From NCBI GenBank assembly GCA_947494195.1, contig CANLUC010000001.1, positions 124,001-188,000 on the forward strand: a stretch of 64,000 nucleotides of DNA, given 5' to 3'. The DNA comes from an uncultured Nesterenkonia sp. (GTDB lineage: Bacteria; Actinomycetota; Actinomycetes; Actinomycetales; Micrococcaceae). The notes under the pieces were generated by a model, which searched no databases, had not been told where the DNA came from, and saw only the letters and a program-made list of their open reading frames with translations. Below are positions 21,489 through 46,642 of the stretch, piece after piece. Positions within the stretch are counted from its first letter, which is position 1. Each line of letters starts with the position of its first letter. The position numbers were made by a program, and so were the translations under genes.

Positions 21489-21720
21489 GGATTCCTCCAC
21501 TCTCGTCCCATGACTCGGACTCTCCCGCGACTGTCCCGCGTGCTGGCGGAAGTCTCCACAATGACCGTATCCCCTCAGGGGTCCGATCAACAGAGGCCAA
21601 GATTGCACTCCAATGGGGAGCGGTAGGCTATGGTTTCCCTCGTCTGAGATATGTTTGGTGGGGAAACTGATTCGTGTTCACCCATTTCTTCCGGACGAAC
21701 CCGTCACCTCGAGGAGCAGC

Positions 21721-29454: not shown

Positions 29455-29476
29455 GCCTGGCTGGGCTACGCCAGGC
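29455..29476. terminator. Hairpin between the convergent tagD and phosphatase genes
   Basis: GCCTGGC (29455-29461) and GCCAGGC (29470-29476) make a 7-bp stem with an eight-base loop. It overlaps the last codons of the convergent phosphatase gene. No T-run follows, so this is a tentative bidirectional terminator. Confidence 0.4.
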
Positions 29477-30212
29477 TGCTGAGCACCTCCGGGGAGAGGT
29501 TGAACATGCGCAGCTTCGCATAGGCCCGGATCTGCTCATCGGTGAGCGATCGGATCCGCTCGGTCGCTTCTTCCGGTGACTCCGAATCGTCCTGCCCACC
29601 CTTGGGAAGCGAGCTACTCAGCGGCCCGCCATGCAGCGGCACATCGATCACGCTGATCGCCCCGGCGGTCACCGAGATCACCCGGGTGCGGTCGATCAGT
29701 CCCAACGCTTCCAGCAGTGCCTTGATCGAGGTCCCATGGGAGACGACGACGGCGGTGCGCAGCGGGTACTTCTCATCGGCCGAAGGCGTAGCTGGAGCTT
29801 CCGCGGCTGCACGCACCACGTGGAAGAACCCTGCCGTCAGCCGCTCCACCAGGGCCTCAGGTGTTTCTCCGCCAGGCGGTGTTCCGTCTCCGGACTTCCA
29901 CGCTTTGTACAGCTCCACGTATTCGGCTTTGGCGTGCGCTGTCTTCATCCCTTCCCACTCCCCCAGGTGCTGCTCCGCGAAATCCTCGCGCGTCTCAGGG
30001 GTGAGGTCCAGGCCGAACTCGGCGAACGTCTGCGCGGTCCGCTCCAGCGTGGAGACGTATGCCTGAGTCGGATTCTGCGAACGGACGTAGCGTCCAGCGG
30101 CCCGAGCCTGGGCTCGGCCTGTCTCGGCAAGCTGGACCTGAGACTGTCCCTGCATGCGGTAGGTCTTGTTCCATTCCGTCTCGCCGTGGCGGACCAGCAG
30201 GATTCGAATCAC
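29466..30212 (-). CDS. Histidine phosphatase (phosphoglycerate mutase-like) family protein
   Basis: 248 residues. The RHG motif (LVRHGETEWNKTYRMQGQ) carries the phospho-accepting His, with Arg partners in YVSTLERTAQTF; the second catalytic His is in VVSHGTSIKALL. These are the four conserved residues of the superfamily. Members are phosphatases for sugar phosphates, nucleotides or cofactors. The start is GTG at 30212. A short TCACT-ttc-AGTGA palindrome lies at 30222-30234. It follows the GT29-like genes by 59 bases and may belong to the same transcript, where it could act on a sugar phosphate (inference). Confidence 0.87.
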   Translation of the reverse strand: MIRILLVRHGETEWNKTYRMQGQSQVQLAETGRAQARAAGRYVRSQNPTQAYVSTLERTAQTFAEFGLDLTPETREDFAEQHLGEWEGMKTAHAKAEYVELYKAWKSGDGTPPGGETPEALVERLTAGFFHVVRAAAEAPATPSADEKYPLRTAVVVSHGTSIKALLEALGLIDRTRVISVTAGAISVIDVPLHGGPLSSSLPKGGQDDSESPEEATERIRSLTDEQIRAYAKLRMFNLSPEVLSSLA

Positions 30213-30271
30213 AGTGTCGTGTCACTTTCAGTGAGAGGGTATAAAACAGGGTCAAAGCAGCCTCGGGCTCG

Positions 30272-32029
30272 TCAGCGCAGCCCGGAGCTGTGTTCCAACC
30301 GGTCAATGTACTCGGCCTCGGAGAGATTCAGCACCTCGGCGACAACCCCCTGTGGGTTTAGAATCCCGGTGGCGCAGAACGCCTGCATCAGCCGGCGCTC
30401 GAACACCAGGTCATGGACCATGACGATGTCATTGAGCGGGGAATGCGGACCGAAGCCACTGTGGGTGCGGTACCCGGGCGGGTAGTTGCGCTCTCCCGCG
30501 TAGAAGTCTGCACCGAACAGCGCGATCTCGGCAGGCGCGAACTGCAGCAGGTCATAGACCATCCGCTGCAGGCCCAGCGAGGTCCCGCGGAAGTAGAGCC
30601 CGAACTCGCTGCGGGTGAAGCGCAGCCAGTCGGGCTGCTCCTCCACCAGGGTGGCGTAGAAGGGCCGGGCTACCGCGAGCTTCAGTGACCCTGCTGCCAC
30701 CGCCTCTGGCGCATCCGCCCACATGGACCCCAGATCGCGGCCGTTGTAATAGGCGACGTCGGTGCGAGTGCCGGTCCGCCGGGCCTCCTCTTCGGAGACT
30801 TCCCCGCGAGCGCGGGTGCGCACCACGACGTCGTAGGTGTCGATGAGTTCGCCGAACTGCTCCTCGGCGGCAGCGGGTCCGACCACGGCGACCCGCTTGC
30901 CCTGCACCAAGCCCAGCATCGCGTCATCCCCGGACAGCGGGAACTCGGCACGGCGAGCGGCGGCATGGACCTGCAAGGGGCCGGCGTCACCGGTGAAGAG
31001 GGCGACGTCGGCGCGCAGCTTCGCGAGCTGGAGCCGGCTCAGGTCTGTGGCCGCGTCCACTGGAGGCCGGGCCGCGGCCCGGCTGGCCTTCCCCAGCTTT
31101 CCCAGCTGGGCGTAGCCGCCCAGGAGGTGCTTGAACCAGAGCGGTGACTCCAGCGGGATGCCGCCGAGCTCTTTGATCCGGTTCCTTGCCATGGCGTCCC
31201 GCAAAGCTGCGGCCACGCGGAAGCGGCGCAGGAACTGCAGCCGGACGATCAGCACCTCCAGCAGCAGTTGGTGCAGCCGGTGCGCCGTCCCCGCGACAGC
31301 CTCCAATGCAGCCTCGGCCTCGGCGAGGCTCTCCGCAGAAGGCTCCTGGTCAAACAGTGGCTCCACCCGCGCCCAGAACGCAGCATCCGCGAGTGGACCG
31401 CGACTGGGCTTCAGCTGTGCGGCGCCGGTCCAGATCAGCGGCCAGTCGAAGGTGGAGCGCGCCCCGGCGTTGATGATGCCCTCCACCGCGCGCAGGTCCT
31501 GCGGGTTCAGCTCCAGCGCCTGCTGGTACAGCCCCAGGGCCGTCTCGAACTGAGCCACATAGGGTTTGCGGTAGGCGGCCGCCAGGGCGACCAGCTTCGC
31601 AGCGGTGGGCTCGGCGGTCACGGCGGCGTCCATGAGCTCGAGTCCGCGCGTGGTCTCCCCCGCGGCGAACAGCGCCCGGCCCAGGCGCCACTGGGCCGCG
31701 GGATCGGAGGGGTCCGCAGCGTGCCGGCGCTCAGCAGACGTCAGCGACTCCGCCGAGCTGACCGGCCCGTAGATCAGTCCCGCAATCGGGTCATAGACCA
31801 GCCCGTGGTCGGCGCCGTCGTCGTCGGTGTTCACGGACTCGCGCAGCATCTGCGCCAGCAGTCCGCGGTAGGAGCCGGACTCCTCATCCTGCGCGCTCGG
31901 CTGGATCCTGCCGGCGGCACCCAGCACGCCACGCTGGCCACCGGGCAGCTCGGACACCCGACGCGCCCCGTATTTGATCACGGCGGCTGCGGCGATCTTC
32001 ACCCGCAGCCCATGCAGACTCAGCGCCAT
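30272..32029 (-). CDS. TPR protein with a GT29-like (sialyltransferase-fold) C-terminal domain, copy 1
   Basis: 585 residues. Positions 105-260 form TPR-like helical repeats (AQWRLGRALFAAGETTRGLELMDAA, TALGLYQQALELNPQDLRAV). The C-terminal ~210 residues show the GT29 order of motifs: an L-motif-like GKRVAVVGPA (377-386) followed by FGELIDTYDVVVRTR; TGTRTDVAYYNGRDL; an S-motif-like SLGLQRMVYDLLQFAPAEIA followed by LFGADFY; and HDLVFE (539-544), an HxxxxE as in the sialyltransferase VS motif. GT29 enzymes use CMP-sialic acid donors. No signal peptide or helix anchor is clear. The gene begins four bases after its paralogue's stop, so they are co-transcribed. Transferase activity is inferred, not shown. 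Confidence 0.7.
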   Translation of the reverse strand: MALSLHGLRVKIAAAAVIKYGARRVSELPGGQRGVLGAAGRIQPSAQDEESGSYRGLLAQMLRESVNTDDDGADHGLVYDPIAGLIYGPVSSAESLTSAERRHAADPSDPAAQWRLGRALFAAGETTRGLELMDAAVTAEPTAAKLVALAAAYRKPYVAQFETALGLYQQALELNPQDLRAVEGIINAGARSTFDWPLIWTGAAQLKPSRGPLADAAFWARVEPLFDQEPSAESLAEAEAALEAVAGTAHRLHQLLLEVLIVRLQFLRRFRVAAALRDAMARNRIKELGGIPLESPLWFKHLLGGYAQLGKLGKASRAAARPPVDAATDLSRLQLAKLRADVALFTGDAGPLQVHAAARRAEFPLSGDDAMLGLVQGKRVAVVGPAAAEEQFGELIDTYDVVVRTRARGEVSEEEARRTGTRTDVAYYNGRDLGSMWADAPEAVAAGSLKLAVARPFYATLVEEQPDWLRFTRSEFGLYFRGTSLGLQRMVYDLLQFAPAEIALFGADFYAGERNYPPGYRTHSGFGPHSPLNDIVMVHDLVFERRLMQAFCATGILNPQGVVAEVLNLSEAEYIDRLEHSSGLR

Positions 32030-32033
32030 GGGG

Positions 32034-34013
32034 TCACGCGCTCCGGGTGGTCAGCGCCGAGGAGGTCTCCAAACGCTGGATGTACTGCTCCTCGGTCAGC
32101 CCGAGCACCTCGCCGGCCACACCCTGCGCGTCGAGCACGCCGCTGGCGGCCATGGCCTTGGTGAGCCGGTGCTCGAAGGCGAGATCGTGGGCGAGCACCA
32201 CCTCGTTGACGATCGAGTACGGTCCCATCTGCTGGTCCTTCGCCGGGCGGTAGCCCTTGCCGAAGGCCTTCTGTCCGCTGAAGAAGTCGATGTTGAACAG
32301 GCTGACCTGCGCGGGGTGGAACTGCAGCACGTCGTAGAGGATCCGTCCGATCCCCATCGGCGGGCCGTGGAAGCCCAGCGAGTAGTCGTGGCTGTAGAAG
32401 CGCAGCCAGTCCGGCAGGTCCTCCCCGGCCGAGGCCATGCTCAGCCCGCGTCCGATCACCATCTGCAGCCGGCCTGCGTCCACGGCGGCGGAGGCCTCGT
32501 CGCGGAAGTCGTCGATGTCGCGTCCAGAGAAGTAGGCGATGTCGGTGCGGCTGCCCAGCCGGGCGCGCTGTTCCTCGTCGAACTCGGTCATCAGCCGGGG
32601 CCGGATGATGATGTCGTAGCCGTCGATCATCTCCCCGAGCCGGTCACCGGTATCGGCGGGGCCGACGACGGCGATCCGCTTGTCCCGGATGAGCGTCTCC
32701 ATCTGGGACTCCCCCGGCAGGGGCAGCTCGGCGCGGCGCTGCGCGGAGTAGTCCTGGTAGGGCGTGAGGTTGCCGCGGATCAGGTGGGTGTCGGCGGCCA
32801 TCTTCTCCAGCCGCTGGCGGTCCACCTCCTGGTAGGGCGTCCAGGGCATGGGGTCGATGAGCTTCAGCGCCTCGTCCTCGCGGCCGAGGTAGATCAGCGC
32901 GGAGAGCAGCTTTTGCCGGTGCCGGCTGTGTCCGGCGGAGCTGGTCCCCAACCAGGTCACGCTGCGTTGGGCGAGCTCGCGGCGCAGCGCGAAGGAGCTT
33001 TGCATCCGTTGCAGGAACTGGAGCCGGTAGACGATCAGTGAGGTGGTCGGCCAGGAGAGCCGCAGTCCGACGGCGTGGGCGGCGTCCAGCGCGGCGAGCG
33101 CCTCGTCGATCTGCTGCTCTTCGGGGGCGGCAGTGAAGAGTTCGCGCAGAGTGCGTGCCAGGTCCAGCTTCGCGGCGGTGTTGCGGCCGCGGGCGGATTC
33201 GAAGAGTTCGGCGCTGTGCCAGAGCCGCGGCCAGTCCTGGTCGGCGCGGCAGCCCATGATGATGACGCCGCGGAAGGCGGTGGGGCTGGTGGGTTTGAGC
33301 TTCAGCGCCTTCTCATAGGCGTCCAGCGAGCGGTCGTAGTCGGCGATGTGCGGCTTGCGGTAGGCCGAGCCCAGGTCGGTCCACCAGGTGGCGCGGTTCT
33401 GTCGCTCCAGCGCGCGCCCCATGAGGTCCAGGCCGACGGCGGCGTCGCCGTGCTCGAACTCCAGCTCGCCGCGCTCATGCAGGACGAAGGGGTTCTCCGG
33501 GTCCAGCTGCTCGGCGCGCGCCAGCGCCTCCCGGGCCTCCTCGGTGCGCGGCAGGGGTCCTTCGACCAGACCGGCCACCGGGTCATGGACGATGTGCCCG
33601 CCGGTGGCGCGCAGCAGGGAGCGGGCCAGGGCGACCCAGCGCAGCGAGGACTGCGGCTCCAGTTCCACGGCCCGCTGGCGCATGGCGAGCGCGGCGTCGT
33701 ACTTCTTGAGTTTGAAGTATTGCCCGGCGAGCCGCTCGAGCTTCTCGGCGTCCTGGGCGGTGTCGATGTCCAGGCGGGCCAGCAGAGCCGAGGCTCCACG
33801 CGGGTTGGCCTCCAGCAGCACGGTGGCCGCCTTGTCCTGGAAGCTGCCCACCGCCGAGCGCTCCCCCGTCATGGCCGTCTCCAGCTGGGAGGGGCCGAGG
33901 CGGGAGGTGGCAAGGACCGCCCGGGCCAGCGCGAGGTCAACTCCGGGGACGGCGGTGGCGGCACCGACGGTGCGTCGGCCGAGCTCAGCGGCGAAGACTA
34001 GTGGTTTCAGCAT
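32034..34013 (-). CDS. TPR protein with a GT29-like C-terminal domain, copy 2
   Basis: 659 residues from the ATG at 34013, a clear paralogue of the gene downstream. TPR-like helices run from about 90 to 340 (AGQYFKLKKYDAALAMRQRA, LDAYEKALKLKPTSPTAFRG). The GT29-like domain holds KRIAVVGPADTGDRLGEMID, GSRTDIAYFSGRDI, GPPMGIGRILYDVLQFHPAQ and HDLAFE (H610 and E615 counted from the in-frame GTG at 34016). TAGACT (complement of 34022-34027) ends eight bases before the ATG, giving a probable leaderless start. The coupled pair suggests a polymerase with two specificities, or two linkage types; this is inference. Confidence 0.7.
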   Translation of the reverse strand: MLKPLVFAAELGRRTVGAATAVPGVDLALARAVLATSRLGPSQLETAMTGERSAVGSFQDKAATVLLEANPRGASALLARLDIDTAQDAEKLERLAGQYFKLKKYDAALAMRQRAVELEPQSSLRWVALARSLLRATGGHIVHDPVAGLVEGPLPRTEEAREALARAEQLDPENPFVLHERGELEFEHGDAAVGLDLMGRALERQNRATWWTDLGSAYRKPHIADYDRSLDAYEKALKLKPTSPTAFRGVIIMGCRADQDWPRLWHSAELFESARGRNTAAKLDLARTLRELFTAAPEEQQIDEALAALDAAHAVGLRLSWPTTSLIVYRLQFLQRMQSSFALRRELAQRSVTWLGTSSAGHSRHRQKLLSALIYLGREDEALKLIDPMPWTPYQEVDRQRLEKMAADTHLIRGNLTPYQDYSAQRRAELPLPGESQMETLIRDKRIAVVGPADTGDRLGEMIDGYDIIIRPRLMTEFDEEQRARLGSRTDIAYFSGRDIDDFRDEASAAVDAGRLQMVIGRGLSMASAGEDLPDWLRFYSHDYSLGFHGPPMGIGRILYDVLQFHPAQVSLFNIDFFSGQKAFGKGYRPAKDQQMGPYSIVNEVVLAHDLAFEHRLTKAMAASGVLDAQGVAGEVLGLTEEQYIQRLETSSALTTRSA

Positions 34014-34188
34014 CACTTGCGAGTCTACTCAGCACAGGCTTCCACGCGAGGCGACACGGGAGGTCAGCGTGGGAGGTCAGCCCTGTAACCTGGGGTGAGT
34101 CCTCACCAGCGCCGGTGCCAGCTCCCGATCCCCTGCCCGCCAGCTCGCAGAGCTGACTCATGACGATGTGGAAAGACCGGAAGACGCC

Positions 34189-35385
34189 ATGACACTCGAG
34201 AAATCCGCCCGTGAGTCGCCGTTTCTGAGATTCGCCAATGCCGAGTACCAGCGGCGCGGGACGCAGCTCCGCCGGGACCTGTCGAATAAGACCTACGTGC
34301 ACAGCCTGCTGGAGAACAAGACCCTGGGCGGAGCCCGGCTCGGTCTGCCCACCCAGCACGCTGTCCTGCATTCCACCGAGGAGATCACCGCCGAGGTGCT
34401 CGGAGACCGGGTCGCGCTGAAGTTTGCGCACGGGTGGTCCGCCAAGGGGGTCATGCTGCTCGAGCGGGTCGGCGAGGACCAGTACTTCGACAACATGGCA
34501 CTGCGCGAGTGGACCCTGGAGGAGATCCGGGAGAAGCAAGAGGCGGTGGCCGCGAAGTTCCGCCGCAAGGACCCGGCCTGGATCGTGGAGGAGTTCCTCC
34601 ACGGGGCGCAGCCCGGGACGGTCCCCTTCGATTACAAGTTCTATGTGTTTCAGGGTCAGATCGCGATGGTCGCGCAGATCGACAGGAACACGTCACCGCC
34701 GCGGATGGTGAAGCTCGACGGCGATCTGAAGCCCTTCACCGTGGGACGCGACTACTTCCTCCGGCTCAAGGACATTCAGCCCGGGGCGCCGGTGGTGCCG
34801 CGCTCCGCGGTGATGCTCTCCCGCTGGGCCATCGAACTCTCGAAGATGACCGATGCGCCCTTCGTCCGGGTGGATCTCTACGACACGGTGGACGGGCCCT
34901 ACTTCGGCGAGTTCACCTTCTCCTCCGGGGCCGAGGTGCGCGGAACCGTCACCTACAGCGAGGAGATGCTCACCCGGTTCGATCACCTCTTCATCGAAGC
35001 GCGGAAGCGGCTCAACGGCGAGGACAGCGAACCGCTCACGGGGTGGAGCAAGGCTCTGCAGGACACCAAGGATGAGGAGCTGGCGTCCTATCCGCTGATC
35101 GGTCTGACGGCGTATCAGCGCTTCGCCCACTTCCTCTACAACCGCGGCAGCCTCGGCGGAGCCCGGTTGGCGGAGGCACAGAAGGCGCTGCGCGACAACC
35201 GGGATGACGGCGAGGAGGAAGACGCCATCACCACGTTCCTGCGTCAAGCCCACCTGGCGGCGGCACGCCGGGCCAGGGCGAAGACCGCTCCCCTGGCGCC
35301 AGCACTGCTGAGAGTCGGCCGCAAGGCGTACCGGAAGCTCCGGCAGGCACGGGCACAGAACAGTGCAGAAGCCAGCGAGGCCTAG
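34189..35385 (+). CDS. TupA-like ATP-grasp protein
   Basis: 398 residues. The core matches the TupA-like ATP-grasp family: VALKFAHGWSAKGVMLLERV, WIVEEFLHG, FDYKFYVFQGQIAMVAQIDR and FVRVDLYDTVDGPYFGEFTF, which hold the nucleotide- and metal-binding acidic residues. TupA is encoded in Bacillus teichuronic acid operons; ATP-grasp enzymes usually ligate a carboxylate to an amine, so it may amidate or decorate a uronic or ulosonic acid (inference). The C-terminal 100 residues are helical and basic. The ATG at 34189 with GGAAGA upstream is preferred over the GTG at 34168. It runs divergently from the GT29-like operon. Confidence 0.8.
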   Translation: MTLEKSARESPFLRFANAEYQRRGTQLRRDLSNKTYVHSLLENKTLGGARLGLPTQHAVLHSTEEITAEVLGDRVALKFAHGWSAKGVMLLERVGEDQYFDNMALREWTLEEIREKQEAVAAKFRRKDPAWIVEEFLHGAQPGTVPFDYKFYVFQGQIAMVAQIDRNTSPPRMVKLDGDLKPFTVGRDYFLRLKDIQPGAPVVPRSAVMLSRWAIELSKMTDAPFVRVDLYDTVDGPYFGEFTFSSGAEVRGTVTYSEEMLTRFDHLFIEARKRLNGEDSEPLTGWSKALQDTKDEELASYPLIGLTAYQRFAHFLYNRGSLGGARLAEAQKALRDNRDDGEEEDAITTFLRQAHLAAARRARAKTAPLAPALLRVGRKAYRKLRQARAQNSAEASEA

Positions 35386-35442
35386 AGGCTCAGAGGTCTA
35401 GAGGCCTCGAGGCTCAGAGGTCTAGAGGCCTCGAGGCTCAGA
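35385..35442. repeat. 24-bp tandem repeat between convergent genes
   Basis: Two full 24-base copies (35385-35408 and 35409-35432) and a ten-base partial copy (35433-35442) begin GAGGCTCAGAGG. Each contains the palindromes TCTAGA, AGGCCT and CCTCGAGG at its junctions, so the block can fold into several hairpins. It fills the gap between the convergent ATP-grasp and cytidylyltransferase genes and may act as a bidirectional terminator. Confidence 0.75.
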
Positions 35443-35445
35443 ACC

Positions 35446-36192
35446 TCAGAGCAGGCTCGCCCCGCGGTGGACCCGCGCCAGCGCCATGTCCTCGAGCAGC
35501 TGGAACTGCTCGGGCCAGTCGATGTCCAGCACCGCGTTCTCGGGGAGCTCGTACATCTTCGGGTTCGTCCCGACGCGGTCGCCGACCTCTCGCATGCGCG
35601 CGAAGGGAATGAAGTAGGCGCCGTGGTTGATCTCGTAGAGCGGCTTGATGTCCTGGCTGCGGGGCCATTTCTCCGCGGTCGGGTCATAGTTGAACGGCCC
35701 GTTCTCATCCCAGAGGAAGGTCTGCAGCTTGGTGACGGTGAGCAGGCTGTCGTGGCCGGCGTCGGCTGCCTCGCGCCAGGCACGGATGAGTTCCCGGAAG
35801 TACTCTGCCCGCAGGAACGGGTGGGTCACGTGGGTCATGCACATGGTCCCGGTGGGCTCCAGGGTGGCCACGTAGTCGATGAACTCGCTCATCGGCGTGG
35901 AGGAGCGGCCCAGCTCATCCGGGCGCTCCAGCGGGACGAATCGGCTGCCGCCAGCGGTCTTGGCGAACTCCTCGGTCACGCTGAGCACCAGCGGATCATT
36001 CGAGGAGACGATGATCTTGTCGATCTCCTGCACCTGGGCCAGCTGCTGCAGCTTCAGCTGCAGGAGCCCGCCGGGGATCTCCGCGAAGGGCTTGGTGTTC
36101 TTCTGCGGCACCCGTTCGCTGCCGGCACGGGCGGGGATGACCACGGTGATCGGGTCGAGGGTCTCTGCTGAGGTCTTCTCTGAGCTGCTCAC
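35446..36192 (-). CDS. CMP-acylneuraminate / CMP-ulosonic acid cytidylyltransferase, copy 1
   Basis: 248 residues. VVIPARAGSERVPQKNTKPFAEI is the nucleotide-binding motif of NeuA/KdsB-type enzymes (Arg, Ser and Lys contact CTP), followed by IIVSSNDPLV, HVTHPFLRAEYFRELI and INHGAYFIPFARM and a final metal-binding Asp in AVLDIDWPEQF. The family activates sialic or related 3-deoxy-ulosonic acids to CMP derivatives. The start is GTG, eight bases from TAGACT (complement of 36201-36206). Its neighbours (GT29-like pair, ATP-grasp, second copy at 44.2 kb) place it in the same pathway. The exact acid is unknown. Confidence 0.85.
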   Translation of the reverse strand: MSSSEKTSAETLDPITVVIPARAGSERVPQKNTKPFAEIPGGLLQLKLQQLAQVQEIDKIIVSSNDPLVLSVTEEFAKTAGGSRFVPLERPDELGRSSTPMSEFIDYVATLEPTGTMCMTHVTHPFLRAEYFRELIRAWREAADAGHDSLLTVTKLQTFLWDENGPFNYDPTAEKWPRSQDIKPLYEINHGAYFIPFARMREVGDRVGTNPKMYELPENAVLDIDWPEQFQLLEDMALARVHRGASLL

Positions 36193-36288
36193 AGCGGTCG
36201 AGTCTACCCAGATCGACGTTTCGTCACGCTGTCACGCTCCCCACCTGGGGACTCTCAGGTCCAGGCCTGGAGGCCACCTGATGTCGAG

Positions 36289-36347
36289 GTTTACTAAGTT
36301 TAGGAAGGTTTACTTCCAAGGACTAAACTCACCTAAACTTGATAAAC
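36289..36347. promoter_or_regulatory. Helically phased GTTTA inverted-repeat operator over a leaderless promoter
   Basis: Two 25-base arms (36289-36313 and 36323-36347, 19 of 25 bases pairing) flank a nine-base loop. Each arm holds three GTTTA pentamers about one helical turn apart: starts 36289, 36298 and 36308 on the plus strand, with their mirror TAAAC copies at 36324, 36334 and 36343. TAAACT at 36343-36348 is also a -10 candidate six bases before the ATG at 36355, so protein bound to the array would block transcription. Probably autoregulatory for the ATPase gene. Confidence 0.65.
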
Positions 36348-36354
36348 TTCCGCC

Positions 36355-37566
36355 ATGGATTCTCTGCGTAACCCGTATACCCCGAACGCAGGCGCTGAAC
36401 CGCAGGCCATCGTGGGCCGTGCAGATGAGCTGCGCTCCTTCGACATTCTGTTGGCGCGTCTTTCCAGAGGTCGGACAGAGCAATCAATGATCATTACGGG
36501 GCTTCGCGGAGTCGGAAAGACCGTGCTGCTGCACCAGTTCCGGGAAAAGGCGGTGGCAAAAAATTGGGTCGTGGCGGAACTAGAGATCAGCAAGCACGAT
36601 GAGAATACGTTCAGACGACTCATCGCAGCTCGCTTGAGAACCGCTCTGCATGAACTTTCACCCCGGACACGTTGGACGGACAAGTTCAAGCATGCGGCAT
36701 CAGTCCTTCGGTCTTTCACCCTGGCCGTAGACCCTGAGGGTCGTGTCACAGCGGGCATCGACCTCGAGGCTGCAGAAGGTTATGCCGACCACGGTGACCT
36801 CACCTTGGACCTCACGGATCTGTTCATCGCGGTAGGCGAAGCGGCTGCGGACAGGGAGAGGGGGCTGGTGCTTCTCGTAGACGAAGTTCAGTTTCTGAAT
36901 CAGGGTGCGCTGGAAGCACTTATCGCAGCGCTCCACAAGACCATTCAGCGGAAGCTCCCCATCACCATGGTTGGAGCGGGTCTACCGCAGATCGCAGAGC
37001 TCGCCGGTGACGCCAAGTCTTACGCGGAGCGCCTGTTCAAGTTTCCCCGGATTCAGAATCTGTCACCTGAGGATGCCCGGGTGGCCCTTAGCCAACCAGC
37101 GGCAGAAGAGGATGCTGAATTTGAGGAGGCCGCGCTCTCGCGAGCTGTCGAGATAACTGCGGGTTATCCCTATTTCATCCAAGAGCTTGGATATGCAGTC
37201 TGGGAGCTGGCAGAGGGCCCACTGATCACCGAAACTGACGTCGTCGACGCAGTCGCTGACTACGAGGCGAAGCTGGACAGTTCTTTCTTCCGAGTACGGT
37301 TCGACCGCTCGACGGAACTTCAGAAGGCCTACCTCCGCGCCATGGCAGAGCTTGGACCGGAACCTCAGCGCGCGTCCGACGTTGCGGAGGTCATGGGCAG
37401 AGTCAGCGCGAATGTCGCCCCGGTACGGGCTCAACTGATCGATATGGGACTCCTCTACACACCCGATCATGGATATGCCGCCTTCACGGTGCCCCACTTT
37501 GATCAGTATCTCCTGAGGGAAATGCCGAAGCTCTCTGTACCGCCGTTGAAGAAGAGGAACAAGTAA
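36355..37566 (+). CDS. AAA-type P-loop ATPase with C-terminal winged helix
   Basis: 403 residues. Walker A ITGLRGVGKTVLLHQF (about 43-58), Walker B GLVLLVDEVQFL (about 172-183), a sensor-like TMVGAGLPQ, and a C-terminal helix-turn-helix-like segment (QRASDVAEVMGRVSANVAPVRAQLIDMGLLY, then a beta wing) typical of the archaeal-ATPase/STAND-like family. The winged helix could bind the GTTTA array before the gene. Base composition looks lower in GC than the neighbours, hinting at lateral acquisition. It is followed after three bases by a GT2 glycosyltransferase, so they share a transcript. Function unknown. Confidence 0.8.
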   Translation: MDSLRNPYTPNAGAEPQAIVGRADELRSFDILLARLSRGRTEQSMIITGLRGVGKTVLLHQFREKAVAKNWVVAELEISKHDENTFRRLIAARLRTALHELSPRTRWTDKFKHAASVLRSFTLAVDPEGRVTAGIDLEAAEGYADHGDLTLDLTDLFIAVGEAAADRERGLVLLVDEVQFLNQGALEALIAALHKTIQRKLPITMVGAGLPQIAELAGDAKSYAERLFKFPRIQNLSPEDARVALSQPAAEEDAEFEEAALSRAVEITAGYPYFIQELGYAVWELAEGPLITETDVVDAVADYEAKLDSSFFRVRFDRSTELQKAYLRAMAELGPEPQRASDVAEVMGRVSANVAPVRAQLIDMGLLYTPDHGYAAFTVPHFDQYLLREMPKLSVPPLKKRNK

Positions 37567-37569
37567 GAC

Positions 37570-38700: not shown

Positions 38701-38733
38701 CCCCTGCCCCTCTGATTCGGACAGGAACCGCTC

Positions 38734-39624: not shown

Positions 39625-39669
39625 CGCTTGTGAGCAGAGGACTTGTTACTGCGACCAGTCCGGCGCGCC

Positions 39670-40098
39670 TTATCGGTGGTTGCGATCCTCGCTGGCGGAC
39701 TCCGCCCGGAGCCGAGCGATCTCGTCCTCGAGGTGCTGACGGTGGTCTTCGAACCCCGCCAGAGTGCGTGCCTCGCTCGCGCGCAGCCGAGCCTCGGTGG
39801 CGTCGAGGGTGCGATTGATCTGGATGGTGCGCTCATCGATGCGCCTGAACATGGCGGTGGTGCGCGCAGGCCTGACGCTTGCTTCCAGGTCCGTGAGTCT
39901 TCCGCGAATCCCGGAGGCAACGTGGGTCATCGCGGCAAGGGTCAGGATCACCAGCGCAGAGAAGAGACCGAAGCTCACGATCGCTGCGACGGCGGCGAAG
40001 ACCCACAGCTGCAGGAGCACCGCGACCACCGTGACCAGCAGAGAGACGCCGTAGAGCGCGATCAGGGCGAGTTGTTCTTTGGAGAGTCCGCGAGTCAT
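39670..40098 (-). CDS. Small membrane protein with coiled coil, coupled to a glycosyltransferase
   Basis: 142 residues. Two transmembrane helices (LALIALYGVSLLVTVVAVLLQLWVFA and AAIVSFGLFSALVILTLAAM) are followed by a long, charged coiled coil (LTDLEASVRPARTTAMFRRIDERTIQINRTLDATEARLRASEAR). Its ATG overlaps the stop of the giant glycosyltransferase by ATGA, so they are translated together. A membrane anchor or scaffold for the transferase is plausible (inference). The coiled coil echoes that of the methyltransferase at 20.4 kb. Not recognised as any known family. Confidence 0.65.
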   Translation of the reverse strand: MTRGLSKEQLALIALYGVSLLVTVVAVLLQLWVFAAVAAIVSFGLFSALVILTLAAMTHVASGIRGRLTDLEASVRPARTTAMFRRIDERTIQINRTLDATEARLRASEARTLAGFEDHRQHLEDEIARLRAESASEDRNHR

Positions 40099-42593
40099 AG
40101 GGCCAGTGTCTCCCGATCTAGAGTGGTCTTGGGCTGCCCGGCCAGCTGGCCGATGAGGTCTGGGTATGCGGTCCAGGCGTGCTGCTGGGCGAACGCCACC
40201 CCGCGTGCGGCCTGCGCCGCGAACAGCTCCTCCTCGGCGCTATAGCGCCGAATCAGCAGCTGCACGGCATCTGCGTCCGCGTAGAGGGCGGCGTTCCCAT
40301 AGACGGTTTCAAAGGCCGGAGGGAGGATCGCTACGCTGCCACTCGCCATCGCTTCAAGGACCGCCCGCTCGGGCTGGCTGGGTGGCGTCTGCGCGTAGTG
40401 CAGGAAGAAGTCCACTCCCCGGTAGAACCCTGAACGGGAGGCGTCCACGGGTTCGAAGACCACCCAGTTTGCGGGCAGATGCCGCACTCCCAGGGCACGT
40501 TGCGCGGCGGCCGGATCCCCGTAAAGACGAACATCGGTCGCTTCATCGGCGGGCCAGCGCAGGAGCGTCTCTGCGGCCTGGGTCGGCCAGTCTTCGCGGG
40601 TGACTCCGGCCCAGCGGCCCAGGACGGGACCGCGGGAGGCCAGGCTGCGGCGCCGGCGTGAGGCGCCTGGAATGAAGGGACTGGTGTAGGTGAGCGGGCT
40701 GATGTCTTCAGCCGGCAGGAGCTGCTCCAAGGCGCTGCGGACCCCGGCGGTACTCGGCACCCACTGGGCACGGCGTCCGAAATAGGCCTCGGCGTGCCGG
40801 GCGCACTCCCCCGGCAGGTATTTGACCTTGGATGCGGCGTCGCGGGGTGCCGCTTCCGCGGCGACTGCTACCTGGTCAGGGATGAATGCTGTGGATCCGG
40901 CGGGCATGAATTGGAGCAGCTCGGGATTGCGCACCAGCAGCAACCCCACCTCGTGGAAGTCTTCGTCGGCGAGCACCAGCTGCACCTGACCGGTGGAGAT
41001 GAGCTCCTCAATCGGGGCGCAGTGCGTCCTGGCGTAGCGAGCCAGATGCAGCGCGTTGTCCAGGTGCAGCACGCCCACGCGTTGACCGGCCTGCAACAGC
41101 TGATGGATCTCTTCCAGAGCGCTGATCTGTTCGGGGCCGTATTCACACCAATCCGCAGCGATCACGACGTCCAGCCTCGGGCCGGGAGCCGGGGGTTCGG
41201 TGAAGCGCGGCGGGACATGGACGGGTGCGGCGTCCCCATCGGTGAGCCGGAGCTGCTCGGGGGTAGCCCGAGCATGCCAGGTCTTATAGGCGCTCCAGAA
41301 CGCGCGCCGGGCGGGGTGCTGCCAGCCGGGCCGGAAATCGGCGCGGGAGAGCGAGTCAGGCAGGATCCGCATGAAGATGAGCGGCTCTTTGATCAGCCCC
41401 ACGGGCTTGCGGGCGTAAGCCGCCAGTCGGTTGCGCAGTTCGTTATCAGCAGCCTTGCGGGCCGGCAGATATCCACCAAGCTCGCGCAGCAGCCGGGTGG
41501 GCGCCATGAGCGTGGGGGCGCTGGGGATATACGGCAGGTAACCGCGGCGGATGCGCACCAGGTCCTCGGTCATGTTCACCGTGTAGACCTGGTTGCCGGG
41601 CTGGTCCGGGTGCCGCAACAGGTCCCAGACCTGCTTTTCAATCCGCTGCGGGTGGGACCAGTCATCGGCGTCCTGGCCGGTGACGTACTCCCCCCGCGCC
41701 TGGGCGATCCCGATGTTGCGCGCGGCATAGGTCCCGCCGTTGGTCTCCAACCGGATCACGCGCACCCGCTGATCCAGGGTTTCAAGCTCATCAAGGATCG
41801 GCGCATAGTCCGCAGGAGAGGCGTCATCGAGGATGAGCAGCTCCAGGTTCTGCCAGGTCTGCTCCAGAATGGACCGCGCTGACTGGAGCACATCCTCGCG
41901 CTCGGGCTGGAAGGCCGTCATGATCACGGTGACCAAAGGATCCCCGGGCTCCTCCCCCACACCGTGCGCGTCAGCCCCTGGGGCGGAGGTGAGCCGGTTG
42001 AACGGGATCCCGTCGCCGGGACGCAGCGAGACCGGAGCCAGGTCATAGTCGTCGAACTGCCGGTTGAACCGTTCAAGCCAGCGCTGGAGCGGCAGTCCGT
42101 GACTGCCTCGGAGGAAGGGGCTTCGGGAGTCGGTGACCAGGTAGTCGAAATGGAAAGACCGCACCTCGGGGTGATCAGCGAACAGCCTCTCGAGCTCGTC
42201 GAAGCGCTCCTGTTCGAAGAGCAGCTCGGCCTCGAGCTTGAGCAGCTGCCGCCGGTTGGTCGGCCAGTCCCTGGGCCGGTGGTTGATCAGCTGCAGCGCG
42301 GCCGTCGCGAATTCTGTATCGGTGTGCTCGGTGTTCTGCAGGGCGCAGACACCAGCAAGCCGGGCGAGCCAGTCCACGCTGAGCGAGTAGCTGGAGACAG
42401 AGCCGTCGAGCACCTTCCGGACGATCTCCGCATACCCCAGGGTCCCGTGAGAGGCGCCCGAGGCGAGGATCTCGCGCATGTGCACCGAGGCACCGCGCAG
42501 TGCGGTGCTCTCCAGCTCTGCGATGCGCCCTGCTCCGCGAGAGATGTATCCCTGGATCATGCCGGCGCGCCACAGGTCCTCGGTGCTGCTCAT
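40095..42593 (-). CDS. Two-domain glycosyltransferase (GT2 plus GT-B-like C-terminus), copy 1
   Basis: 832 residues. About 1-200 are helical; 218-360 is a GT-A domain with PLVTVIMTAFQP, LELLILDDASPADY, NGGTYAARNIGIAQARGEYVTGQDADDW (DxDD site at about 308-311). From about 475 a GT-B-like Rossmann domain follows (LDVVIAADWCEYGPEQ, ERAVLEAMASGSVAILPPAFETVYGNAALYA). A very similar layout occurs in the large protein at the right edge of the window. It probably adds two sugars, or a repeat unit, to a wall polymer (inference). It is encoded downstream of a paralogous alpha/beta hydrolase; 51 bases separate them. Confidence 0.8.
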   Translation of the reverse strand: MSSTEDLWRAGMIQGYISRGAGRIAELESTALRGASVHMREILASGASHGTLGYAEIVRKVLDGSVSSYSLSVDWLARLAGVCALQNTEHTDTEFATAALQLINHRPRDWPTNRRQLLKLEAELLFEQERFDELERLFADHPEVRSFHFDYLVTDSRSPFLRGSHGLPLQRWLERFNRQFDDYDLAPVSLRPGDGIPFNRLTSAPGADAHGVGEEPGDPLVTVIMTAFQPEREDVLQSARSILEQTWQNLELLILDDASPADYAPILDELETLDQRVRVIRLETNGGTYAARNIGIAQARGEYVTGQDADDWSHPQRIEKQVWDLLRHPDQPGNQVYTVNMTEDLVRIRRGYLPYIPSAPTLMAPTRLLRELGGYLPARKAADNELRNRLAAYARKPVGLIKEPLIFMRILPDSLSRADFRPGWQHPARRAFWSAYKTWHARATPEQLRLTDGDAAPVHVPPRFTEPPAPGPRLDVVIAADWCEYGPEQISALEEIHQLLQAGQRVGVLHLDNALHLARYARTHCAPIEELISTGQVQLVLADEDFHEVGLLLVRNPELLQFMPAGSTAFIPDQVAVAAEAAPRDAASKVKYLPGECARHAEAYFGRRAQWVPSTAGVRSALEQLLPAEDISPLTYTSPFIPGASRRRRSLASRGPVLGRWAGVTREDWPTQAAETLLRWPADEATDVRLYGDPAAAQRALGVRHLPANWVVFEPVDASRSGFYRGVDFFLHYAQTPPSQPERAVLEAMASGSVAILPPAFETVYGNAALYADADAVQLLIRRYSAEEELFAAQAARGVAFAQQHAWTAYPDLIGQLAGQPKTTLDRETLAL

Positions 42594-42644
42594 CTGTGCC
42601 CTCTCATCTGCTGCCCCTACAGCTGCGTGACGTCCCGCAGCACT

Positions 42645-43517
42645 CTACGCGGTCCAGTCCTCAAGCATCGTGAGGCCTCGGTCAATGGTCTCCACGAAAC
42701 GGCCCCGCCCGGGCGGCTCGTGGAACGGCGCAGCGGAGTACTCCTCGAACCTGACTCGCTGCGCGTTGGGGCCACCCTGGACGGAGTCTTTGAAGGGGAG
42801 GTAGTGCTTCGCGTAATGGTGTTCGTCGCGGACATTCTGCACGACCAGTGCATGGTTCCGAACCGGCCCAGAGTAGGTCTGGACGGCGGACACCCGGCTG
42901 CCGAGCGCAGGAAGCCACTTGCGGCGAGACTTTCCTCTGTCCTCGAGAGCCGGCATGATGCGCCGGATGTAGCTGGCCTGCGCCTTCCAGTGATACCTGT
43001 TCAGGGCAGTCTGCGCGTTGAACGCGATCGCCAGACTCCCGGGGAGATGGGGCGCTACCTGAAGAGCTGCGAAGCCCCCTCCGGAGGATCCGACCAAGAC
43101 GATCTGTTCGGCACCGACTGCTCGCGCCGCCTTGGTGATGACCTCCCCCAACAGTGGATACAGCTCCACCCCCTCCCACCCGAGATACCAGCCGAGCAAC
43201 AACTTGGAATCCACGCTGAGAGTGGGGTCAGACAAGAAGAGACACGAGTACCTAGTTCGCTCATCCAGCGTCCGGAGCCACTCGAAACGCGGTAGGTGAT
43301 GGCGTCCGTTCAGCATCGCCCCGTGAAAGACGACGACGAGCGCGCGGCTGCCCTTGTTGAGCATCAACGCGTCCAGGCTCCCGCGGTCGTCCAGGGGGAC
43401 GGTGTACCGAAGAGCACCGCGCTGGGGGTTGAACACCAGCTCATCAGCGGATTCAACTCGCACCACCGGGACGGAGATTCCGCCACGGTCTGGGGCGGCT
43501 ATGGGTTCAGGGTTCAT
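42645..43517 (-). CDS. Alpha/beta-fold serine hydrolase, copy 1
   Basis: 290 residues. Seen: LVVVFHGAML (oxyanion region), CLFLSDPTL, IVLVGSSGGGFAALQVA (GxSxG with Ser about 145), and FNAQTALNRYHWKAQASYIRR. A clear paralogue sits at 59.5 kb (CLYFSDPAL, YGSSGGGFAALRFA), also next to a giant glycosyltransferase. Such a fixed partnership suggests an acyl esterase or acyltransferase acting on the same polymer (inference). The ATG at 43517 begins just upstream of the conserved part; TTATCT with a six-base gap may be a -10. Confidence 0.75.
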   Translation of the reverse strand: MNPEPIAAPDRGGISVPVVRVESADELVFNPQRGALRYTVPLDDRGSLDALMLNKGSRALVVVFHGAMLNGRHHLPRFEWLRTLDERTRYSCLFLSDPTLSVDSKLLLGWYLGWEGVELYPLLGEVITKAARAVGAEQIVLVGSSGGGFAALQVAPHLPGSLAIAFNAQTALNRYHWKAQASYIRRIMPALEDRGKSRRKWLPALGSRVSAVQTYSGPVRNHALVVQNVRDEHHYAKHYLPFKDSVQGGPNAQRVRFEEYSAAPFHEPPGRGRFVETIDRGLTMLEDWTA

Positions 43518-43561
43518 AATCGGAGATAAGTATGCCACCGAAGAATGGCAGCGCCGCAGGG

Positions 43562-44218
43562 TCAGAGAAGCTGCTGAAGATCCTCGACGTTGGCGATGCC
43601 TTGTTGGTGGCACCAGGTGTCCCATCCCGGCACCTCGGTCCACGCGGAAACGAAGATGAAGTCAAGGCCCGCCTGCGTGGAGGCCTGGTGATCATAGGTG
43701 CTGTCGCCCAGGAACAGAGCGGAACCAGAGATGTTCGTCCGCGCCAACTCTCTAGCGAGGATCTCGTCTTTGGTATCGGGACTGCCGAAGATCCCCCCGT
43801 CGAAATGGCTGCTGATGCCTCGAGCGTGGAAGATCTCCCGGAGTTCCTGCTGGTCACCGCCAGAGACGATCAGCCACCGGGACTCTTGAGTGGTCTGCCG
43901 CAGCTGATCCAGCCCAGGCGCGATCTCACAGGCCATGAGGCCCGCTCGAACTTGCGTGGCGTAGGCAGCGAGGAGGGAGTCCAGTCCGGGCCCTTCGGTG
44001 CCGTCCACCATCTCCTCGAGAAACAGCGCGAACTTTTTGTATCGCGAGATCCCACCATGGCTCACGTGGTAATCGACCAGGCGCTGGGCTGCCGCTTCCC
44101 CGTAGGGCAGCGCTGCCTCGTAGAAGGCCCGCGTCTTGACCCGGTTGGAGTCGAGGACGACCCCATCGCAGTCAAAGACCAGCGTCTGGTATCGCGAGAA
44201 GTCCGTCGACGCACTCAC
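43562..44218 (-). CDS. HAD-superfamily phosphatase
   Basis: 218 residues. Motif I LVFDCDGVVLDSN (the nucleophile Asp and the second acid), motif II LIVSGGDQQ, motif III Lys in DTKDEILAREL and motif IV LFLGDSTYDHQAS are all present; the cap domain lies between I and II (phosphoglycolate-phosphatase type). In ulosonic acid pathways a HAD enzyme (KDN-9-P or Neu5Ac-9-P phosphatase, KdsC) removes a phosphate before CMP activation; this gene lies directly after a cytidylyltransferase (GTGA overlap) and suits that role. The start is GTG at 44218. Confidence 0.85.
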   Translation of the reverse strand: MSASTDFSRYQTLVFDCDGVVLDSNRVKTRAFYEAALPYGEAAAQRLVDYHVSHGGISRYKKFALFLEEMVDGTEGPGLDSLLAAYATQVRAGLMACEIAPGLDQLRQTTQESRWLIVSGGDQQELREIFHARGISSHFDGGIFGSPDTKDEILARELARTNISGSALFLGDSTYDHQASTQAGLDFIFVSAWTEVPGWDTWCHQQGIANVEDLQQLL

Positions 44219-44907
44219 AGCTGCACGAGGCCCTTTTGCAGGAGCGTCTCCCCCACAATGAAGTCTTCGTTCCAGTCAATGTCGTGGCTGACCAGCTTGT
44301 CCAGGGGGTACAGGTAGGGGCGCTCCCCGATGCGGTCGTCCAGGGCCCGGTACACCTCGGCAGGCGCCAGGAACACTCCGCTGTTGACCTCGTGGACGGG
44401 TTCCAGTGTCTGGGTGCGTGGCCACTTCTCCACTGTTCTGTCGTAGTTCATGGGACGCTCGTGCTGCCAGAGGAAGCCATGGATCTCTGTGGTGGTCATC
44501 AAAGAGTCGTATCCGGCGATGAGCTGCTCTTGATATGCGGCGATGATCATGTCGTACTGCGCCGCACTGATGAACGGGCTGGTGACGTGCGTCCAGAGAA
44601 TATGACCCTTCCCGATGAGCTCTAGGGCGTGAGCCACTAGCTGATCGGTGCTGGTCTCGCTGGAGGAGAGCTCCTCAGCACGGCGGTGCACCCTGAGCTT
44701 GGGATCATCCAGGGTGGCTGCGTAGTCGAGTATCTCTTCGTCGTTGGTGGAGAGAACCACCTCGTCCACACCCTCGCTGGCAAAGAGCTGCTTCAGCTTG
44801 ATCTCGATCAGCCCGTGCTGCACATCCGCGAAGGGTTTGATGTTCTTTCGCGGAACCCGCTGGCTGCCGGCCCGGCAAGGGAGAAACGCAGTGACGCGCT
44901 CGCTCAT
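44215..44907 (-). CDS. CMP-acylneuraminate / CMP-ulosonic acid cytidylyltransferase, copy 2
   Basis: 230 residues. VTAFLPCRAGSQRVPRKNIKPFADV is the CTP-binding motif with the Arg/Ser/Lys contacts; VVLSTNDEEILDYAA, HILWTHVTSPFISAAQYDMII and VNSGVFLAPAEVYRAL follow, ending with the metal Asp in HDIDWNEDF. It shares the same layout with the copy at 35.4 kb, including the KPFAD and DIDW motifs. Its ATG overlaps the stop of the aldolase gene and its stop overlaps the start of the HAD gene. Aldolase, activator and phosphatase thus form one translation-coupled unit. Confidence 0.88.
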   Translation of the reverse strand: MSERVTAFLPCRAGSQRVPRKNIKPFADVQHGLIEIKLKQLFASEGVDEVVLSTNDEEILDYAATLDDPKLRVHRRAEELSSSETSTDQLVAHALELIGKGHILWTHVTSPFISAAQYDMIIAAYQEQLIAGYDSLMTTTEIHGFLWQHERPMNYDRTVEKWPRTQTLEPVHEVNSGVFLAPAEVYRALDDRIGERPYLYPLDKLVSHDIDWNEDFIVGETLLQKGLVQL

Positions 44908-46511
44908 GAGATCATCCCGTAGACGCTCTTCTGGACGTCCACGTCGTACTTAGTCGGGGTGATCGAGGTGAGCTGCACTGCGCTTCCCTCCTCGGTGTAC
45001 CGGCGCACCACGTGGTTCATCTCCTCGTTGCGGACATCCTCCCCGGGGTATCCGTCGAATCCGGCGAGATAGAGGCCCTTCGCTTTGCCGCTTGCGATCA
45101 CGGCAAAGGCGTAGGCCATCACCAACGATGTCGGTGCGACGCAGTGCGTATCACCGAAGCTAAACGTGTCGGACTGTACGCGAAGTCCAAAGTCCAAAAC
45201 TTCTTTCTCCCCCAGGGCGTCCTTGGCATCCCGCGGCAACATCGAATACGGCGCAATGAGCGGTTGTGGCAGCCGCACATGCTGCTCGGCGTCAGCCAGC
45301 AGCCGGATGGGGTGGGAGGCCACTCGCACATCGATGAGGTCGGACGAGACTGAGGTCTGCGTGTTCAGCGCGACGACGAGCGGCTTGTGCTCTTTGATGA
45401 AGGACTCGAGGGCAAGCTGGTGGTGAGCGACGCCGGGTCCGGTTCCCAGCAGCAGGACGTCGCGATCCTTGAAGAGGCTCTGCGGGCTCCAGCTGCCCTG
45501 CGCGTCCTCGCCGTAGAACTGCCTGGCTGCGTCCATGGTCTGGACGTCGAACTTGGCTCCACCTTCAACGCGAAGGTGCTCGATCACGGAGAGGACATCT
45601 TCCTCGTCGTACCGGGCATCATTGAGCATGAACTGGATGTAGGTCGGGTGAATGCTGTACTTGCCGGCCAGATAATAGAAGGGGTTGGTTCCCCAGCCGT
45701 AGTGCGCCTGCATCGGCTTGAAGTGCTTGCGCAGCAGGTTCATCAGCGGCACGAAGTTGGCGGACTTATCGCGGCGGGCGGCCATTTCGATGGCCAGCTC
45801 TTCGGTGCGGGCATTGCCGGGGCCACGGCCCATACCGGTGACCGTCGAATCGATCCACTCGACGCCCTCGTCCATCGCTCGAAGCGAGTTGGACAGGGCG
45901 AGCCCCATGTTGTCGTGGGTGTGGATGCCCATAGGACCGGACCACTCGGTGCGAATCCACTGAATGATCTGGGCGGCCTGATCTGGGGACATGCCACCGA
46001 AGCTGTCGGCGAAGTAGAGGACGTCGAGCGGGTACTGAGCGGCGGTGCGCGCGAGACGTTTGATGTCGTCTTCGCTGCGGTCAGCGACCTGCATGAGGTT
46101 GAAGCCCACTTTGTAGCCGCGCTCTTTCAACCAGTTCGTGGCGGGAACGGCGGCTTCGAACTCGTGGACGTGGCAGGCCACACGAACGAGCTCCACCGGA
46201 GAGTCTGCGGCGGATACGGGGAAGAGCCGTTCCAGCGCTTCTACCTGGGGCATAGTCTTGCCGGTCAGCTCGCCTCCGTTGACCATGACGCCGATCATGA
46301 CGGAGTCGGGCAGGGGCAATCCGCGGAGGAAGTCGTCGGTGGTAAACGCGCAGGGCCCCTGATAACCAGAGTCCTTAAGCGTTCGGAATCCAAGTTCCAG
46401 CACATCCACGCCTGCGGCGGGCAGCGCATTCAGATAGTCCAGGATGAGCTCACGGGAGAAGTCCCAGGAGTTGTAGTATCCGCCATCTCTAAAAGTACAG
46501 TCGAGGAACAT
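44904..46511 (-). CDS. HMGL-type aldolase fused to a second Rossmann-like (DUF115-like) domain
   Basis: 535 residues from ATG 46511. Residues 1-290 are a DRE-TIM barrel: MFLDCTFRDGGYYNSW (catalytic Arg8 and metal-ligand Asp9), VLELGFRTL, MGIHTHDNMGLALSN (HxH metal ligands about 197-199) and GMGRGPGNART, as in 4-hydroxy-2-oxovalerate aldolase and HMG-CoA lyase. The C-terminal ~180 residues (VLLLGTGPGVAHHQLALE, VVALNTQTSVSSDLIDVRVAS) look like a DUF115/MptE-like domain. Such aldolases join pyruvate or similar units to aldehydes, so this may build the carbon skeleton of an ulosonic acid; no neuB-type gene is seen. First gene of the unit at 46.5-43.5 kb. Confidence 0.78.
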   Translation of the reverse strand: MFLDCTFRDGGYYNSWDFSRELILDYLNALPAAGVDVLELGFRTLKDSGYQGPCAFTTDDFLRGLPLPDSVMIGVMVNGGELTGKTMPQVEALERLFPVSAADSPVELVRVACHVHEFEAAVPATNWLKERGYKVGFNLMQVADRSEDDIKRLARTAAQYPLDVLYFADSFGGMSPDQAAQIIQWIRTEWSGPMGIHTHDNMGLALSNSLRAMDEGVEWIDSTVTGMGRGPGNARTEELAIEMAARRDKSANFVPLMNLLRKHFKPMQAHYGWGTNPFYYLAGKYSIHPTYIQFMLNDARYDEEDVLSVIEHLRVEGGAKFDVQTMDAARQFYGEDAQGSWSPQSLFKDRDVLLLGTGPGVAHHQLALESFIKEHKPLVVALNTQTSVSSDLIDVRVASHPIRLLADAEQHVRLPQPLIAPYSMLPRDAKDALGEKEVLDFGLRVQSDTFSFGDTHCVAPTSLVMAYAFAVIASGKAKGLYLAGFDGYPGEDVRNEEMNHVVRRYTEEGSAVQLTSITPTKYDVDVQKSVYGMIS

Positions 46512-46642
46512 TTCGGCAAGTCTCCAGCCCACTCATCAACGTCAGGGATCCGTACAGAACCTAGCACGGTGACTACTCCACGGTCAGTTCACGTCGGACT
46601 GTAGAGTGATCACGACTCGAATCTCCGGCAACAGGAAGACGT

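Follow-up and report, generated by a model that had tools for sequence, protein, structure and literature searches.

Nine- and eight-carbon acidic sugars such as the sialic acids and Kdo are credited to two families of phosphoenolpyruvate (PEP)-dependent synthases, NeuB and KdsA, and the synthesis of N-acetylneuraminic acid (Neu5Ac) and Kdn follows a three-activity logic. In the Kdn/Neu5Ac-9-phosphate-type route, the NeuB/NeuA nonulosonic acid pathway is served by a HAD phosphatase. Among actinobacteria, a Kdn teichulosonic acid is described for Streptomyces coelicolor in the available extract of PMC7831098. Here, we describe a three-gene cassette in a 64,000-nucleotide stretch of DNA from an uncultured Nesterenkonia sp. 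(the window: C1:124001-188000 of source genome G000, which comprises 2.78 Mb in 27 contigs). The cassette (43562-46532) encodes an aldolase fusion protein, a cytidylyltransferase (CT1) and a HAD phosphatase and probably makes a cytidine monophosphate (CMP)-activated 2-keto-3-deoxy sugar acid, or ulosonic acid, with no need for either NeuB or KdsA. Like the NeuB/NeuA pathways that include a HAD phosphatase, it encodes synthase, phosphatase and CMP-acid cytidylyltransferase together; whereas those pathways use the PEP-dependent NeuB, the cassette has an aldolase of the HMGL-like type that also carries a Maf-like domain. What appears to be new is the use of a different synthase within the three-activity logic of Neu5Ac and Kdn, and the unusual fusion of that synthase to a Maf-like domain. 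Searches of an open-access library showed no account of such a cassette, subscription journals lying outside the search.

The three genes run along the minus strand from 46532 to 43562, in the order aldolase (44904-46532, 542 aa), CT1 (44215-44907) and HAD phosphatase (43562-44218), with a four-base overlap at each of the two junctions, so that translational coupling is plausible. In the proposed route, the HMGL-like domain, acting as a metal-dependent pyruvate aldolase, would couple pyruvate to a sugar aldehyde or its phosphorylated form; the HAD enzyme would remove the phosphate; CT1 would activate the acid with cytidine triphosphate (CTP); and a transferase, for which the Maf-like domain of the aldolase itself is a possible candidate, would pass the acid from its CMP donor to a surface glycan. 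The observations beneath this proposal are the genes with their domain content, the folds predicted for two of the domains, and the conservation of the genes together in different phyla.

The closest named relative of the aldolase, at 94% identity, comes from Nesterenkonia sp. Act20. The N-terminal DRE-TIM domain (approximately residues 9-316) scored 100.7 bits against Pfam HMGL-like (cut-off 29), and the protein matched neither PF03102 (NeuB) nor PF00793 (KdsA). Searches of the PDB returned 3dxi ('putative aldolase', 1.1e-46) as best match, followed by 4-hydroxy-2-oxovalerate aldolases; all share this domain, and their D-x-x-x-R-D, H-x-H and G-x-G-x-x-x-G-N stretches align with the cassette protein. 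Residues D11, R15, D16, H204, H206 and N240 were invariant in an alignment of eight relatives and are presumably metal-binding or catalytic. In contrast to the 4-hydroxy-2-oxovalerate aldolases, the cassette aldolase falls well below the family equivalog cut-off (TIGR03217: 100.1 bits against 286), is fused to an extra domain and sits beside CMP-acid cytidylyltransferases. From family membership, we infer that pyruvate is the likely donor.

The C-terminal domain of the fusion (residues 338-542; 44904-45521, minus strand) was missed by the first-pass annotation of this DNA, as was a nearby NeuB discussed below. It was modelled by AlphaFold2 with a pLDDT of 95.3 and a pTM of 0.92, and a Foldseek search with the model gave the Maf glycosyltransferase 5mu5 as best PDB match (E 1.8e-5, TMq 0.67), followed by SteA and MptE (E 4.4e-5 to 4.5e-4). 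The domain is therefore predicted to share the fold of the Maf flagellin nonulosonate transferases (PF01973); here, unlike in Maf, it is fused to an aldolase, and the two other Maf domains outlined in the available extract of PMC11339370 were not seen. Of 55 relatives, 11 gave a weak PF01973 match (best 3.3e-4); the domain encoded in the window gave none. A profile search of PDB sequences retrieved MptE chains only (best E 0.0074). That search and the SteA and MptE structural matches would suit a kinase or pyrophosphokinase of the MptE or thiamine-pyrophosphokinase type that acts on the substrate and is not a CMP-sugar transferase—a function compatible with ulosonate synthesis by the cassette and one to which we give appreciable weight, short of preferring it. 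Arguing for transfer are the identity of the best structural match, the resemblance between the PF01973 domain of Maf and the sialyltransferase CstII (described in the same extract of PMC11339370) and the finding of a CMP-donor gene beside the aldolase fusion in 77/80 loci. Judging from the model, the C-terminal domain possibly transfers the CMP-activated acid.

CT1 and a second cytidylyltransferase in the window, CT2 (35446-36192, minus strand), scored 45.9 and 46.4 bits against PF02348 (CTP_transf_3; cut-off 22.6) and are the only proteins of the source genome to exceed that cut-off. Both are of NeuA/PseF type; neither reached the NCBIfam PseF equivalog TIGR03584 (60.4 and 62.9 bits, respectively, against 205.7), and the best PDB relative of CT1 was PpNeuA (2.8e-12). 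The HAD protein scored 43.8 bits against Pfam Hydrolase (cut-off 26.4), its sole PDB match being 2hdo, a 'phosphoglycolate phosphatase' (1.2e-4); the inclusion of such an enzyme in the cassette suggests that the product is phosphorylated before the phosphatase acts.

We confirmed 244 relatives of the aldolase in our genome collection and kept the closest 80 for study. A cytidylyltransferase was counted as adjoining if it started between 400 bases before and 3 kb past the aldolase stop, or ended no more than 400 bases from the aldolase start. As the gene caller set some starts too early and missed some genes (for example, the cytidylyltransferases in L044 and L045), counts were made on all open frames. 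Hosts included Nesterenkonia, Halomonas, Marinobacter, Pseudomonas, Psychrobacter, Idiomarina, Rhodobacterales, cyanobacteria and Bacillales, among others. Aldolase and Maf-like domains shared a single frame in all 80 loci, and a cytidylyltransferase adjoined the fusion on the same strand in 77, leading us to reject a catabolic role for the aldolase; in the three others (L100, L105, L115), only 0-203 bases remained before the end of the locus (contig). In 63/80 loci, no more than 120 bases separated the cytidylyltransferase start from the aldolase stop. Both a cytidylyltransferase and a HAD gene were present in 73/80; besides the three truncated loci, this count leaves out L064, L078 and L091, which showed no HAD gene, and L051, which has it on the opposite strand.

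The 77 adjoining enzymes fell into two kinds, 39 being of KdsB type and downstream, and the remainder of NeuA/PseF type (33 downstream, five immediately upstream). None was matched by both KdsB-type and NeuA/PseF-type queries (phmmer, 1e-4), and the frames with dual matches (three at phmmer 1e-4; four by both profiles at 1e-5) sit elsewhere in their loci. The two kinds, both belonging to PF02348, are separate branches, not unrelated enzymes. The pairing of one aldolase with two kinds of ulosonate activator suggests that the product is an acid that can be activated with CMP and is the best sequence evidence on its class.

The cassette aldolase is rare within its own order (matches in 2/248 genomes, the source genome and one distant) and common outside the phylum. 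Within the phylum, 26/396 genomes gave matches, of which four, including the source, were near full length at at least 43% identity, plus one more distant. Three Leisingera plasmids carry a colinear arrangement of aldolase, '3-deoxy-manno-octulosonate cytidylyltransferase' and HAD gene, the HAD proteins being 64-66% identical to that of the window. All three Leisingera records name the aldolase merely as an 'aldolase catalytic domain-containing protein', so annotation would miss surface sugars made in this way; the cassette, which occurs in numerous Gram-negative genomes and in a smaller set of Gram-positive ones, may represent another entry to the ulosonates. On plasmids of Priestia, Mesorhizobium and Paraburkholderia, relatives with a single domain had no cytidylyltransferase annotated within 8 kb, in gene tables that are incomplete. 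Two partial matches occurred in phage records, and no relative was confirmed among the viral contigs searched. Halomonas alkaliantarctica FS-N4 carries two copies of the cassette approximately 16 kb apart on one scaffold (L053, L056).

The window had been said to lack neuB, kdsA and neuC, which holds within our Pfam scans of its 40 called proteins, and a search of the whole genome had been proposed as the check. Genome-wide profile searches found no PF00793 (KdsA) match; they did find a single NeuB domain (PF03102; C1:188575-189303), only 575 bases past the end of the window and forming residues 270-512 of a 528-residue protein. One PF02350 epimerase (NeuC/WecB-type) lies on another contig. 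The idea that the aldolase takes the place of NeuB thus fails as a description of the whole genome, which has NeuB as well, but comparison with other genomes leaves it well supported for the cassette itself. When NeuB was sought in the genomes behind 50 of the 80 loci, it was absent from 27; the cassette cytidylyltransferase was of NeuA/PseF type in 17 of these 27 and of KdsB type in ten. Many of the genomes searched are drafts. In G378, an actinobacterial draft of 100% estimated completeness, a KdsB-type gene comes right after the fusion, and genome profile searches found neither NeuB nor PF00793. NeuB is no fixed neighbour of the cassette: a relative was seen in 3/80 loci.

Several points count against synthesis independent of NeuB and KdsA. 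Besides the NeuB of the source genome, NeuB matches were found in 23 of the 50 cassette genomes; two of these matches, in G672 Metabacillus and G680 Rossellomorea, are weak and fall on the one PF00793 gene of each genome, which we take for a DAHP synthase. NeuB was also matched in G458 and G308, the two phylum relatives besides G378. PF00793 was matched in 10/14 genomes searched, one to four times in each of five Gram-negative cassette genomes (L078, L049, L063, L076, L090); a Kdo synthase may be present in these hosts, which would weaken the argument from NeuB absence and make a KdsA product possible there. No HAD gene was found in L064, L078 or L091, nor in G378 (L045), L043 or L044, with L043 and others ending soon after. 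In the aldolase, a tyrosine aligns with a histidine of 4-hydroxy-2-oxovalerate aldolase that presumably has a role in that enzyme, so the reaction may differ. An HpcH/HpaI aldolase, which the proposed scheme does not explain, directly follows the fusion in 7/80 loci (L118, L109, L091, L123, L057, L070, L112), placing two aldolases in a single operon. The 80 loci were found through patterns taken from fusion proteins, and numerous related species are among them; they cover only part of the family and should not be read as independent cases. The proposal draws on sequence and models.

The second aldolase in those seven loci and the PF00793 genes of the five Gram-negative hosts would also fit a role in which the HMGL-like domain alters or lengthens a Kdo or nonulosonate product whose carbon skeleton it did not make, or supplies a side group, either ahead of CMP activation or following it. 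We consider this quite unlikely, given that our HpcH search found no relative in 73/80 loci and that G378 has no other known ulosonate synthase. Returning to synthesis by the aldolase, we tentatively suggest that the cassette represents a third, widespread route to CMP-ulosonates, in which one polypeptide combines a pyruvate aldolase with a Maf-type transfer domain and is paired with an activator of NeuA/PseF or KdsB type; its product could differ in chain length from the acids that NeuB and KdsA make. An HpcH/HpaI aldolase also follows the fusion in the more distant locus L046.

Two tandem proteins with tetratricopeptide repeats (TPR) and C-terminal sialyltransferase-type domains lie further along the minus strand, at 32034-34016 and 30272-32029. 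They share 38% identity across residues 141-658 of the former, and their C-terminal domains align at 46% with the same motifs, the evidence for 30272-32029 being alignment only. An AlphaFold2 model of the C-terminal 243 residues of 32034-34016 (residues 418-660), built from 15 sequences, had a pLDDT of 80.0 and a pTM of 0.85. Its top 30 PDB matches in Foldseek were mammalian sialyltransferases (best 8.6e-7), which we take to be GT29 enzymes, followed by CstII and CstI; by title, 29 of the 30 are sialyltransferases and 5cxy is just 'a Glycosyltransferase', and TM-scores were modest (TMq 0.27-0.50). A profile search of the PDB with the domain found five sequences, all sialyltransferases (best E 0.033), while Pfam PF00777 was matched by one of 15 family members (0.0028) and not by the window protein. 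The model thus supports a GT29-type fold in 32034-34016, as the first-pass annotation had anticipated. Bacterial GT29 sequences have been reported earlier, according to the available extract of PMC5811610; the window proteins are predicted to share their fold and sialyl-motif-like positions, and differ in adding an N-terminal TPR domain and in being barely recognised as GT29 by Pfam. The locus brings a bacterial GT29 group together with genes that probably supply the donor for it.

No match to the GT29 protein was found on plasmids. GT29 relatives occurred in 10/80 cassette loci, all Marinobacter by title, and we rejected the GT29 gene as a fixed part of the cassette. In Marinobacter L076, L077, L098, L101 and L103, cassette and GT29-like gene lie amid a cluster resembling those for lipopolysaccharide core, with a WaaP-type kinase confirmed in L077 and weakly matched in L101.

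The NeuB past the window end is itself a fusion (L002:1525-3111 (-), approximately C1:188524-190110), in which NeuB follows an N-terminal domain of some 250 residues with a GKGPS motif. Searches of Pfam and the PDB with its first 245 residues gave nothing convincing, and the similarity to the aldolase's Maf-like domain is no more than suggestive of homology (hhalign E 0.0019, probability 14%; second run E 0.01, 4%). An inositol-monophosphatase-like gene overlaps the gene for the NeuB fusion, which could be aligned in G071, G103, Nesterenkonia Act20, N. salmonea and Garicola; in Act20 and Garicola, cassette and NeuB fusion share one contig each.

Comparison with G071, of the same genus, separates these genes from the cassette. 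This genome gave no match to the aldolase and keeps the GT29 pair (67% and 51% identity), an adjoining CT2 (64%), the NeuB fusion and relatives of two neighbouring glycosyltransferases, which does not support the earlier suggestion that all the genes of the locus make one polymer. Elsewhere in G071, a stand-alone NeuB adjoins a protein that fuses CTP_transf_3 and HAD domains. G103 belongs to a different family. There, the NeuB fusion lies on the same strand as an inositol-phosphatase-like gene, a pair of CTP_transf_3 genes and a GT29/TPR gene, while a second contig carries a NeuB at a distance of one gene from a cytidylyltransferase-HAD fusion. Such fusions near a stand-alone NeuB lie at L148:5442-6686 and L149:6965-8200.

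We read these arrangements as two pathways. Pathway A would comprise the NeuB fusion, the inositol-phosphatase-like protein, CT2 (assigned here by inference) and the GT29 pair; pathway B would comprise a synthase, a HAD phosphatase and a cytidylyltransferase, the synthase being the aldolase in the source genome and Act20, and NeuB in G071 and G103, where stand-alone NeuB and cytidylyltransferase-HAD fusion predict the same three activities as the cassette. The swap of aldolase and NeuB is one of function and not of map position: the idea that NeuB replaces the aldolase at the same site in G071 was not borne out, the NeuB lying at a different place on the 36-kb contig concerned. Pathway A looks more conserved than the cassette and separate from it, and probably makes and transfers another ulosonic acid in the source genome; because G071 keeps it without the aldolase, two CMP-sugar acids are likely. 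As GT29 relatives lie near the cassette in Marinobacter, GT29 enzymes may use the donor of either pathway, which weighs against a strict split.

The presence of the NeuB fusion in the same locus, and with the cassette in Act20, N. salmonea and Garicola, could also reflect a single pathway, in which the acid comes from the NeuB fusion, both cytidylyltransferases work with that fusion, as does the GT29 pair, and the aldolase does no more than prepare or recycle a precursor, for example by supplying or cleaving an aldehyde. Such an arrangement seems improbable, as the aldolase-cytidylyltransferase pair is kept in the 27 of 50 cassette genomes without NeuB and in G378, which has neither NeuB nor PF00793, and the NeuB fusion, CT2 and GT29 pair persist without the aldolase in G071.

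The gene inventory drawn up beforehand (aldolase, CT1, HAD phosphatase, CT2, TPR pair and tagD genes) was confirmed by Pfam scans and coordinates. Next to the cassette on its strand is a weakly alpha/beta-hydrolase-like protein (42645-43643; Abhydrolase_6 E 0.043, 14.9 against 26.3 bits), whose called start overlaps the HAD gene and is probably too early, followed by a GT2 glycosyltransferase (40095-42593, minus strand; Glycos_transf_2 1.8e-25) with relatives at 51-88% in G071, Nesterenkonia Act20 and Garicola. A second GT2 gene lies at 37570-38700 on the plus strand (3.1e-26), and a TupA-like ATP-grasp protein (34168-35385, plus strand; ATPgrasp_TupA 3.5e-13) separates CT2 from the GT29 pair. 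After the pair comes a branch 1 histidine phosphatase (29466-30212, minus strand; His_Phos_1 5.9e-41), 66% identical in G071.

Teichoic acid genes are represented on the plus strand by two TagD-type cytidylyltransferases (CTP_transf_like, PF01467; 28419-28877, 9.4e-21, and 28913-29434, 1.6e-20) and a TagF-type CDP-glycerol glycerophosphotransferase (21613-22857; Glyphos_transf 5.1e-38). Ulosonate-type genes near TagD- and TagF-type genes in an actinobacterium recall the Kdn teichulosonic acid of S. coelicolor, as described in the extract of PMC7831098, with the difference that the cassette synthase is not NeuB; by this analogy, 'teichulosonic acid' is a guess at a label for the locus.

An AAA_16 ATPase (36355-37566, plus strand) among the polysaccharide genes has a low third-position GC content and a BrxC/D match barely over cut-off. 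Between 46001 and 60000, GC content drops from approximately 0.67 to 0.53-0.58 over glycosyltransferase, heparinase II/III-like and GSCFA genes, as if this block had been acquired; heparinase-like genes cluster in 4/80 cassette loci.

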